Source: Nitrospira defluvii
Lineage (GTDB): Bacteria > Nitrospirota > Nitrospiria > Nitrospirales > Nitrospiraceae
Direction: 5' to 3'
Assembly: GCA_000196815.1 (NCBI GenBank)
Contig: FP929003.1
Span: forward strand, 2,317,501-2,381,500
Length of the DNA stretch: 64,000 nt
Each line of letters begins with the position of its first letter. The stretch's first letter is position 1. The notes below the pieces were generated by a model that was given only the letters and a program-made list of their open reading frames with translations, was not told where the DNA came from and did not search any database. A program made the position numbers and the translations under genes. Of this stretch, positions 7,752 to 63,186 are shown piece by piece.

Positions 7752-8438
7752 TTGCGAGCGATCGAAAGTCTAGCTCCGAAAAAAACGCCAACCTGACATC
7801 GTGAACCTGACTGTGTGCCGGGTTCTGCGTGCAACGAACGCGGCACTCATCGGCCCAGTGTCACCGGAGGATAAGAATATGGGATGCGAGCAACTACTGC
7901 CGAGGAAGGCCGCAACAAGGTCGCGGGCGGCAGGACTCGGTTAACATAGCAGGAGCTTTTGAGAAGGGTACTTGAACGACCTAAGAGGATAGAAAAGCCA
8001 TCGCCGGGACAGACAAGTATCCGGGATGCCGGAAAACAGCAGGAAAGCCACTAGCAGGATGCGGAAAAAGTCCGCCAGCGGCGTTCTCGCATCGCTCAGC
8101 GGCTCACCGTGCCGCAAGAGTACGATTCGCCCCTGTGCTCGCTGCGGCCTTGCTGGACGGCCTTTTTGCGCATCCTGCGAGGCTGTTCAACGTCGTCCCA
8201 CACCGCGTATCTGTGGTGGCTTTGGGACTCAACATGAGTTTTTCCGCAACCTGTTAGGAGTCTGTCCGAGTCATCCTTCGTTGCGAGGCGAAGGAGCTGC
8301 TGGTAGTTGTGAGGCTGCAGGCGCGAAAAAACCGGAGGTATATTCACTGGAATACGTTGAGGATTTTTTCGGGCCGAAAACGACGCAGATGCCGGCAGAT
8401 CGTTATTCGCAGCAGAATGGCATGACTCGAGCAGACTC
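7752..8438. other. Gene-free region with MITE-like element
   Basis: No convincing gene. Several overlapping open frames exist but none shows family features. The main content is the repeat at 8051-8257. The left part (7752-8050) is not recognised; the right part (8258-8438) runs to the end of the convergent-side lyase gene. Confidence 0.5.
8051..8257 (+). repeat. MITE-like repeat with terminal inverted repeats, copy 1
   Basis: The left end CTAGCAGGATGCGGAAAAAG (8051-8070) is the inverse complement, with few mismatches, of the right end TTTTTCCGCAACCTGTTAG (8239-8257). Inside, at 8162-8178, CTTTTTGCGCATCCTGC is a further inverted copy of the end, preceded by GCGGCCTTGCTGGACGGCC. The second copy at 62467-62814 has the same ends and shares the inner block in opposite orientation. 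No transposase is encoded, so it would be non-autonomous. Confidence 0.75.
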
Positions 8439-10427
8439 CTACACGAATCGCAAACGCGTCATGAATTCATGCGGGATAGCACCGGTATAGGCGACCCGCA
8501 GCGTCGTGATTGGATGCTTGGAACCATACCGTGTCGAAGCCCATCCGCCCACCGGTTGCACGCTACCCTCGCAAAGGGTACTTGTCCCTCCCTCAACGGT
8601 GAGTAGGAGCGGGTGATCGAACCCTTCCAAGCGATAGCCCCCCTCCACGGGAATCGGTCGGCAGCCTAAGTGCCAGTTCAGTTCAACATGATGCGTGCCG
8701 GTGCCCGTCAGCCAGTCCCAGATCATCCAGGAGCCGGGCGGCTCATACGAGACTCCCCGCAAATGAGTCACCCCTAACCGTTCCTTGTATCCATAGTGCC
8801 TGGCGATGACGGTTATTTTTCCCTCGGGCGTCTCGTCTTTGTACACGAGATGCGTATCGAAGGGCAGAGACCAGGCCAGTGGACCATCCTGGACCGCCTG
8901 GTCCAACCCGTCGATGGTCACCGTATTATGGGCGCGTGTACTACGAAAATACGTCCGCCACTCATCATGACCCGTACAGGTATAGGTACCCGGGTCGATC
9001 AGCACATCACGCGCTCCCACCTGAAGCAACAAAGACAGCGCATCGGCATGACCGTGCCGATACCGTGGGGCCATCCCCAGCGCGCCATGATCGAAAATCG
9101 CCTTGTCTCGCATCCGGCCGCGAAGGATCGAATACCCCGAAAGATGAAAGGTGGTCAGCCCGGGAGAGTGCGCCTTGGTAGGATGAATAAAATGCATGTA
9201 TGGAGACAGCGCGTGCTCATCCTCGCCTTCCCCGATCGGCGGAAGCTTCCCGTCGGTTGAGTTGCGGAATGCATCCAGAAAATCGCGGCTGCGCGCAAAC
9301 ACCTGGCGGATCTTCTCAGGCACAGGCGACTGCCGGTGATCGAGAAGCGTTAACACCATCCCATACAGATCCGTACAGAATTGTAGGTATCCCACTCCCT
9401 GCTCCTGGCTGCCGCCGTCATGACTGATGTGCCGGGGAGTTTCTTCTTCCAACAGGTAATGCCCGAACGCGAGCCATCGCTCGGCCATGTCCATTTCAGG
9501 AAAAAGACTGCCGGCATAGATCAACGCCACCGCAGCCGCCAGCGTGTCATGAGGGGTAATCAAGCGAAGCGACAGACGTTTTCGGATCAATTCCGCATGA
9601 CCGGCAATGAGGGTCAGCACCGCAGGCCACACTCGGTCAGAAGTGGGCGCTAATGGACGGAGTGCATCCATCGCATGACAGACCGCCAGGAGGCGCAGCG
9701 CGCATTCTGTCGGAGAGATGTAGTGGATCCCGGTCAAAAACGGATTCGCCTCAACCCAGGAAACGAGCTGTGCCTCTACCGCCGCCACGGCCGATGAACG
9801 CACAACCGGTTCAGCCTGCTGTGCCAACATAGCCAGGAGCACCAGGTGCTGGAGGCGTGAAGGCTCCCACGCCATGCGAATATCTCCGCAGGGGTTGCCG
9901 GACTGAAACGGGATGTCGGCAAAAAACCGTCGTGGCCAGAGAGCTCCCGTATCCGGCGCTCGATGCCAACAGGAGCCGTCGGGAGCCCAGGCCCAGGAAT
10001 ACCCAAAGATGGTCACGACGCCTTTGAGCAGAGCCTCCAGCCGGTCATCGTCTGCCGGAAGATGCCAGGGCAAGGGAGGCAGCATCGGCGAGGGACCGGC
10101 GCAGAATGAATAGCGCGGCACATCCTGCGCCGTAAATGGTCGATGGAGTGATTGCCGACCGAGTCCCTGCCGCAGGTGCAGCAGCGAAAACAGCGCGCGT
10201 TCTCTCGCATGACTCCACCATTCCAATCGTCCCGGCGCGGCGAGGGCTTTCACCGACGAAGCGAGGCGTTGGGGAAGGGCATTGGGATTGAATGACAGCG
10301 TTACGCGCACTGACAAGCCATGCAGAATGAATGGGAAAGAAATTGGTGAACAAGGCTCCGTCCATTCGGCCTTGATTAAGTGCCACGTCGAACAAGGCAC
10401 AGTACATTCGTCGAGCGCTGAGGTCAA
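8439..10427 (-). CDS. Heparinase II/III-family polysaccharide lyase
   Basis: Up to 662 residues. The N-terminal half is an alpha-toroid-like domain; the C-terminal half carries the heparinase II/III domain with MAPRYRHGHADALSLLL, LIDPGTYTCTGHDEWRTYFR and STRAHNTVTIDG, containing the histidines and tyrosine expected near the active site. Such enzymes cleave uronic-acid polysaccharides by beta-elimination. The start is uncertain: the first 40 residues look unlike the family, and a GTG near SVRVTLSFNPN is a likely true start. No signal peptide is clear. It is transcribed away from the rest of the locus and resembles a second family member at 23186-24886. Confidence 0.85.
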   Translation of the reverse strand: MTSALDECTVPCSTWHLIKAEWTEPCSPISFPFILHGLSVRVTLSFNPNALPQRLASSVKALAAPGRLEWWSHARERALFSLLHLRQGLGRQSLHRPFTAQDVPRYSFCAGPSPMLPPLPWHLPADDDRLEALLKGVVTIFGYSWAWAPDGSCWHRAPDTGALWPRRFFADIPFQSGNPCGDIRMAWEPSRLQHLVLLAMLAQQAEPVVRSSAVAAVEAQLVSWVEANPFLTGIHYISPTECALRLLAVCHAMDALRPLAPTSDRVWPAVLTLIAGHAELIRKRLSLRLITPHDTLAAAVALIYAGSLFPEMDMAERWLAFGHYLLEEETPRHISHDGGSQEQGVGYLQFCTDLYGMVLTLLDHRQSPVPEKIRQVFARSRDFLDAFRNSTDGKLPPIGEGEDEHALSPYMHFIHPTKAHSPGLTTFHLSGYSILRGRMRDKAIFDHGALGMAPRYRHGHADALSLLLQVGARDVLIDPGTYTCTGHDEWRTYFRSTRAHNTVTIDGLDQAVQDGPLAWSLPFDTHLVYKDETPEGKITVIARHYGYKERLGVTHLRGVSYEPPGSWMIWDWLTGTGTHHVELNWHLGCRPIPVEGGYRLEGFDHPLLLTVEGGTSTLCEGSVQPVGGWASTRYGSKHPITTLRVAYTGAIPHEFMTRLRFV

Positions 10428-43752: not shown

Positions 43753-43790
43753 AGCAGGGTGCGGGAAACGTCCGCCGCCGGTGTTCTCGC
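43753..43790 (+). repeat. Half copy of the MITE-like repeat
   Basis: AGCAGGGTGCGGGAAACGTC and the following CGCCGCCGGTGTTCTCGC resemble the left end and first inner part of the element at 8051 with several mismatches. No matching right end is present before ppx begins at 43823. It is a decayed solo end. Confidence 0.5.
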
Positions 43791-62347: not shown

Positions 62348-63186
62348 TCACCAGCTCGAACGAGTGTTCTATCCCTCCACGGCAAGCGTCCTGTTGCACC
62401 GTCACCTAATCTTCAGACGACGCTTAGGCCGAAGCGCAGCTCCGCCCCCTTGCACATCTCCACTCTCTAGCAGGCTACGGAAAAACTCGGTCTTTTCTCA
62501 GGAGCTCGCAATCAACTCACGTGCTTTGTTGGGGTCAGAATCACCCGCAGAATGAGCAAAATGGCCGTCCAGCAAGGCCGCAACAGGGTCCGCGACGCCG
62601 AAGGATCATGAGTCTTACGTCTGCGGACGGGCGCGAGCCGGTGAGCGCCCCGTATCTCAGAGGCGAATTGTTCATTCTTACCCCCCATCCCGAGCCTGCC
62701 AAGACAGGCTCTTGTCCCGTGGCCGTAGGGTGAGCCTCTGAGGTTCACGACGCGCGGAATAACGCGCGTCACGTATGTGAACGCCGCTAGCGGCCTTTTT
62801 CCGCATCCTGTTAGGGACACATCCAGCTCCTCGCTTGGTTTTGCTCCGTATCAAACTGTCTTGTCTTCGCCCAGCTTCGTGTTGTCCATCATGGAATCGG
62901 CCGCAGGAAGACTTGATAACCGATGGTCGTCATGGAGAGCCGAACGCTACATGAGGGAGCTGCAGGTCACCAGGGAAGGACCGTCTTCGTGCTTGAAAGA
63001 AGTCGGAAAAGATGATTCTCTCCGGATCATTGTCAATGGTTCCGGATTACAGAGACCTGGCAGATCCGTCGGTTTATCGGCACTCAGACATGCGGATGCA
63101 GGTGTTGGAGAGTGTCATACCGGTTCGAGAATGGGTAGAAGCCGGTATCAAGCCGAATGCCGCTCGATACCGGCTCATCCTGCAGA
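62348..63186. other. Gene-poor region with MITE-like element
   Basis: No supported gene. The first half holds the second copy of the inverted-end repeat (62467-62814). In the second half short open frames exist on the plus strand up to 63194, for example one with DYRDLADPSVYRHSDMRMQV, but I recognise no family and coding character is weak. Confidence 0.45.
62467..62814 (-). repeat. MITE-like repeat with terminal inverted repeats, copy 2
   Basis: The ends CTAGCAGGCTACGGAAAAA (62467-62485) and TTTTTCCGCATCCTGTTAG (62796-62814) are inverse complements with two or three mismatches, as in copy 1. The inner block TGGCCGTCCAGCAAGGCCGC (62562-62581) is the inverse complement of the block before 8162 in copy 1, so this copy is in opposite orientation. 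It is longer (348 against 207 bases); the extra part is unique. Confidence 0.72.

Follow-up and report, generated by a model that had tools for sequence, protein, structure and literature searches.

Positions 8051–8257 of a 64,000-nucleotide stretch of the Nitrospira defluvii genome (FP929003.1, 2,317,501 to 2,381,500; the whole stretch is called the window here) hold what the initial annotation described as a MITE-like element with inverted ends. A third copy of the end lies inside it, and the locus raises the question of what a transposon-like unit with one end too many is carrying. The features discussed below are as follows (window coordinates).

8051–8054, no strand: left 4-bp target duplication (CTAG); flanking 4-mers are identical in 17 of 21 aligned copies
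8055–8176, plus strand: 122-nt structured hairpin core (left end, inner helices and internal third end), from the alignment, folds, covariation and a covariance model
8055–8074, plus strand: left terminal inverted repeat and 5′ arm of the hairpin; end type as in the likely parent IS
8158–8181, minus strand: internal third end, the 3′ arm of the hairpin; position 10 is G opposite G in 107 of 112 unique cores
8177–8238, no strand: variable right module, subfamily-dependent, from copy comparison
8239–8253, minus strand: outer terminal inverted repeat, CAGGTTGCGGAAAAA on the minus strand; matches autonomous IS ends
8254–8257, no strand: right target duplication (TTAG), altered at its first base; a second repeat also has its edge here, from flank comparison
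43753–43790, plus strand: left-half relic between convergent histidine phosphatase and Ppx/GppA genes (84% over 38 nt)
62467–62814, minus strand: second copy, reversed, with an enlarged loop and all three ends, from copy comparison and the end motif

The element proper occupies 8055–8253 (199 bp), a correction of the 8051–8257 given initially; the four bases on either side (8051–8054 and 8254–8257) are target duplication and lie outside it. In this copy the duplications read CTAG and TTAG, with one base changed. Target-site duplications had been suggested as a check, and identical NTAR 4-mers do flank 17 of the 21 aligned genome copies; CTAG and TTAG are the most frequent targets, and CTAA, GTAG and ATAG also occur. 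The inverted ends are real, 8051–8072 being 86% complementary to 8236–8257, and so is the further inverted copy, with 8158–8181 88% complementary to 8051–8074. The end motif occurs three times in the unit, at 8053–8069 (plus strand), 8163–8179 (minus) and 8239–8255 (minus). Six occurrences at three or fewer mismatches are present in the window against 0.18 expected, and none of 100 shuffles reached six.

The internal third end is a regular component of the unit, in which it supplies the right-hand side of a conserved hairpin. At position 10, where the hairpin retains a G facing a G, it departs from the sequence of a working end. Transposition of the core alone by way of the internal end was considered and rejected, as position 10 differs and the duplications sit outside the outer end. 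The 8051 copy lies within an open reading frame (8026–8490); a coding role is unlikely, since core lengths range from 120 to 124 nt in steps that are not multiples of three, which speaks against a conserved reading frame.

The source genome is a single contig of 4,317,083 bp, and a family of many copies in it, which had been predicted from three sites in the window, was found. A blastn search with the first 130 bases, in which 40 of 135 candidates were scored, gave at least 44 matches. With a covariance model of the core the count was at least 119 at E ≤ 0.01, 150 of its 2359 candidates having been scored. From the 119 model matches listed, the three weakest (E 0.005–0.009) were left out, and the 116 analysed became 115 without 1313830, 108 after matches under 100 nt were dropped, and 107 with readable arms. 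The longer copy at 62467–62814 has the same three-ended design in the opposite orientation (left end 62795–62810, internal end 62548–62563, outer end 62471–62486), with an enlarged loop. A loop insert of about 66 bases is common to it and to the copies at genome positions 1821008, 650182, 3604382, 1447924 and 3731946. The half copy at 43753–43790 retains the left half only. The initial description of the three sites as relics suits 43753 but does not suit 8051: that copy is a member of a young group of 11, of which four are identical to the group consensus between the duplications. Old cores also form tandem arrays, at genome positions 2715448–2715833 (spacing 131 bases) and 423837–424186; the latter directly follows the stop codon of a gene that we call ATP-grasp-like from its look.

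A transposase carrying the same ends had likewise been proposed as a check, and the same genome supplies one. It contains two PF01609 genes, one of which lies within a 1316-bp element that has CAGGCTGCGGAAAAAC at both ends and TTAG on both flanks; the corresponding end of the unit is CAGG[A/T]TGCGGAAAAA. The 342-aa protein of the 1316-bp element matches NF033581 (IS5 family, labelled IS5_4) with 278.9 bits against a cut-off of 140, and also matches PF05598 and PF01609. By its ends and flanks, this IS5-family element is the likely parent of the MITE. The other PF01609 gene (L064:1420–2190) encodes a different IS5-type transposase (NF033580) and has a right half of the unit some 600 bp away. Relatives of the transposase of the 1316-bp element are present in 48 of 147 genomes of the family at E ≤ 1e-20. 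Among 30 such IS loci examined, 25 had a readable end pair, and 16 of these 25 are flanked by identical 4-mers. Their ends vary with transposase subgroup: GCGG in the closest, GTTG in two 54–56% relatives, CAGTCTGCTG in a 53–54% group and TTGACAAAC at about 43%. MITE copies in the family also end in GCGG, GTTG and TTGACAAA, and the IS end types met again at MITE ends include GCGG, GTTG and TTGACAAAC. This correspondence fits mobilisation of the MITEs by such IS5 enzymes.

The gap in which the 8051 copy lies looks like a repeat hot spot. In two relatives the orthologous place lacks the unit and has another repeat instead. This third, hairpin repeat, with ends GGATTATTCATGAATGCC and GGCATTCATGAATAGTCC, occupies the unit's place at L194:900–1090 and L195:880–1040, and it is also found beside the site A copy (below) in several genomes. 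In N. defluvii itself a second repeat of about 187 bp (window 8255–8441), with ends TAGGAGTCTGTC... and ...GCAGACTCCTA, abuts the unit; it has many copies across the genus, and TAGGAGTCTGTC sequence likewise borders a further copy of the unit, L013.

The initial MITE reading holds for the unit, its copies, the duplications and the transposase; what it did not foresee is that the first 122 nt are a conserved, folded core found family-wide. RNAalifold gave a weak consensus on the raw alignment, and so we used the mean of individual folds. By that measure 112 unique cores of 120–124 nt, taken from many genomes, form one long hairpin in which the left end pairs with the internal end. Its features are G opposite G at end position 10 (107 of the 112), an A-run opposite a T-run, an inner covarying helix, a CGTAC/GTACG tip and the unpaired bases GTTCT, which are almost invariant. 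Covariation was measured on 31 of 32 sequences chosen for diversity (L028:38–158 was left out). In the drawn structure standard pairs make up 86.9% against 80.3% in shuffles; 23 pairs have changed on both sides against 13.3, and two-sided cells number 81 against 24.3 (0 of 500 shuffles attained these values). When the partners are slid by one to three columns, pairing falls to 32–43%. The inner helix lies outside the transposon ends, and two-sided changes occur in all 10 of its pairs. The helices thus covary beyond the controls, as expected of a conserved structured RNA, and an Rfam search with the core gave no match at the gathering score or at E ≤ 1.

Is the hairpin kept once a copy can no longer jump? 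Copies were sorted according to how many of the first 15 left-end bases are mismatched, three or more counting as a ruined end; the arm test disregarded four pair positions (end positions 8, 9, 10 and 17). The 33 ruined-end copies carry 106 compensated two-sided stem changes; when the right arms were shuffled 2000 times among the same 33 copies, the number averaged 43.0 and never exceeded 64. Their broken cells number 164 against 257 in the shuffles. Neither these shuffles nor those that follow allow for relatedness, and conversion from one copy to another could produce part of the same pattern of paired changes.

Two insertion sites allow orthologous copies to be followed in place. At site B (genome position 4194565), between two convergent genes, the left end is now GCGGGCACTGAAAAT and no longer looks like a transposon end. 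Both flanks were found in 24 genomes, 23 with the insert and one (G061) empty; in five others the search did not recover the two flanks together. Analysis of 21 of the 23 filled loci (no right arm was found in L431 and L433; L459 was left out as identical to L442) gave 13 two-sided pairs against 5.6 expected and 29 two-sided cells against 9.7, with 0 of 500 shuffles as high for either. Half-changed intermediates are visible among them, and the G-G mismatch is kept in 20 of the 21. At site A (genome position 1562554) the upstream gene is present in all 29 genomes of the genus: 14 have the core in the same orientation, 4 in the opposite one, 7 have partial or rearranged pieces, 3 are empty and in one the contig ends too soon. 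In the 14 copies the two-sided cells number 27 against 11.1, whereas the two-sided pairs come to only 6, with 4.9 expected and 65 of 500 shuffles as high. Site A is the weaker on the pair measure; its inner helix comes in two block-like types, and replacement by other copies may be among its changes. Overall, these counts support the view that selection keeps the hairpin shape in old copies whose ends have decayed. Such copies are probably unable to jump, and the upkeep of their hairpin suggests that the bacteria have come to use it.

The core is present in 142 of 147 Nitrospiraceae genomes and in all 22 genera sampled. It was found in 95 of 295 genomes of a phylum sample, where only three genomes outside the order matched, and those weakly (E 5e-6 to 9e-4). 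An exact scan of a species collection gave at least 116 stretches, and all 80 of those listed carry the titles Nitrospira, Nitrospiraceae, Nitrospirae or Nitrospirota; viral contigs gave no match to a 30-base core pattern. Within the family, first-look candidates are most numerous in genomes of genus g10 such as G074, G100 and G103, at up to about 250 per genome. In the genus of N. defluvii the sampled genomes have 53 to 169, apart from G061 (one contig, 4.2 Mb), which is nearly free of the element (17 first-look candidates, best E 8.9e-10). With its few copies and with sites A and B both empty, G061 shows that the element is dispensable at the genus level.

Old copies sit at the ends of genes. 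Gene context was taken from a home-made, codon-scored gene caller, whose count superseded a crude first one. A same-strand stop codon lies within 12 nt upstream of the core in 39 of 86 old copies, and in a slightly wider set 26 of 92 directly adjoin the stop codon. Both neighbouring genes could be called for 63 old copies, which are flanked by convergent genes in 31 cases, by tandem genes in 32 and by divergent genes in none; the baseline for neighbouring gene pairs in the window is 7 convergent and 6 divergent of 43. An apparent orientation bias toward the upstream gene (41 vs 8 in the first count) vanished at equal distances, the fair count within 100 nt being 45 vs 30 (p = 0.1). A stop codon survives insertion, since the duplicated target itself includes TAG or TAA. 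The gene would be left intact, so that copies would be expected to accumulate at gene 3′ ends.

From these observations we consider it rather probable that the unit is an IS5-driven, non-autonomous MITE and that its hairpin is kept once the unit has inserted, probably as a 3′-end RNA structure. A transposase like that of the 1316-bp element would recognise the left end and the outer right end, and to judge from the ends and duplications the unit would have inserted at NTAR sites with duplication of 4 bp. Insertion at a stop codon would spare the gene, and copies would build up at gene 3′ ends. The cargo would be the 122-nt hairpin, whose shape selection would keep even after the ends decay, and which would work in RNA, read from either strand, to end or protect the transcripts of flanking genes. 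That it is a 3′-end RNA structure usable from either strand in this way we hold with moderate confidence, and we take pure selfishness and a DNA-level role seriously as rivals. It is possible, and we put this more tentatively, that the core is an undescribed structured RNA of the whole Nitrospiraceae, dispersed by IS5 and domesticated copy by copy as a shared 3′-end element.

A rival reading is a purely selfish MITE, its hairpin serving transposition only, gene ends being harmless sites and old copies junk. The ends, the duplications, the likely parent IS and the young identical copies are all as such an element would have them. Its YTAR targets include stop codons (in the window, 6 at stops vs 78 intergenic), absence from divergent regions is expected under selection against promoter damage, and the gene-end positions could follow simply from copies being kept out of promoter regions. 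What it leaves unaccounted for is that copies with ruined ends maintain pairing by paired changes, orthologous copies in place included, and that the inner helix and the near-invariant loop bases lie outside the ends; we regard it as unlikely. The arms might instead match through a mutational process, quasi-palindrome templating or conversion between copies, and not through selection. Long inverted repeats are prone to templated correction, and the two block-like inner-helix types at site A could be replacements. Templating should remove the G-G mismatch, however, and this persists in 107 of 112 unique cores and 20 of 21 site B copies; the half-changed intermediates at site B also argue against such a process, which would leave the near-invariant unpaired loop bases unexplained, and it is very improbable as the explanation.

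If the hairpin is kept by selection, its role might differ from the one that we prefer. The A-run and T-run flank a GC-rich stem (AAAA in 25 and TTTT in 24 of the 31 diverse cores) and convergent gene pairs are enriched, as would suit a bidirectional intrinsic terminator carried by the MITE, with A-run, GC stem and T-run on both strands. Yet the T-run is often broken in resident copies (TTTT in 9 of 21 at site B, GTTT at site A), and the loop is far longer than in usual terminators. The core is not a short-loop GC stem followed by a T-run, and a short-loop scan found no terminator at 8051, its loop limit of 3–8 nt being unable to see the core hairpin. The classical terminator reading is not well supported, and its bidirectional form seems doubtful. 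Wobble pairs leave the strand undecided, as their counts (8 vs 18, 38 vs 43 and 24 vs 14) favour neither strand consistently. This leaves room for a role at the DNA level, in which the core, as a cruciform or single-stranded hairpin, might for instance bind a protein or serve in recombination, and the conserved mismatch, the near-invariant loop bases and the tandem arrays of cores would be in keeping with it. The position at gene 3′ ends better suits transcription, however, and this analysis identified no partner protein, so that we think a DNA role quite unlikely.

It has long been suspected that MITE hairpins in bacteria were co-opted for mRNA processing, and to our knowledge the known cases rest on few loci. 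Here one genome holds more than 100 copies of every stage, ranging from recent, identical ones to old ones that have lost their ends, together with the likely parent transposase, and orthologous copies across 29 genomes of the genus let the drift of the hairpin be traced pair by pair. The timing of the change from selfish hairpin to functional structure is thus directly testable, in bacteria relevant to nitrification. If the core is indeed an RNA dispersed by IS5 and domesticated in this way, a regulatory RNA structure spreads through a genome by jumping into stop codons.

We found no description of this repeat in Nitrospira in the literature searched, most subscription journals lying outside the search. 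Among known repeats, REPs are tied to other transposases. They resemble the core as repeated extragenic hairpins (PMC12306157); they are palindromes of 20–40 bp (PMC3733652), and a 122-nt hairpin would escape a RepRanger count, in which loops are limited to 11 nt (PMC12306157). The closest transposon parallel is MITEPsy1 of Pseudomonas syringae, an IS5-type MITE of 100 nt whose 18-nt ends are nearly identical to those of ISPsy2; it targets CTAG or YTAA with a 4-nt duplication, its transposition has been demonstrated and the studied strain has six copies (PMC3189936). It differs in that the available parts of that account describe no internal third end, family-wide core or compensatory evolution of resident copies (PMC3189936).

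The closest functional parallels, as far as the accessible portions of these sources go, are ERIC and the Correia elements (PMC2229807, PMC2759123). Correia/NEMIS of Neisseria is a MITE with a long-hairpin transcript, for which RNase III processing of neighbouring mRNA has been proposed; it has other ends and a TA-type target, and no internal third end is described in the part consulted (PMC2229807). ERIC (IRU, RU-1) of enterobacteria is a family-wide, MITE-like intergenic repeat of 127 bp with a long stem-loop, which is transcribed with its neighbours and has a reported effect on upstream mRNA stability; its duplication is TA and its mobilising enzyme unknown (PMC2759123, PMC2229807). The Nitrospira unit, in contrast, has a 4-bp NTAR duplication in place of TA and a likely parent of IS5 type, and its copies hug stop codons.
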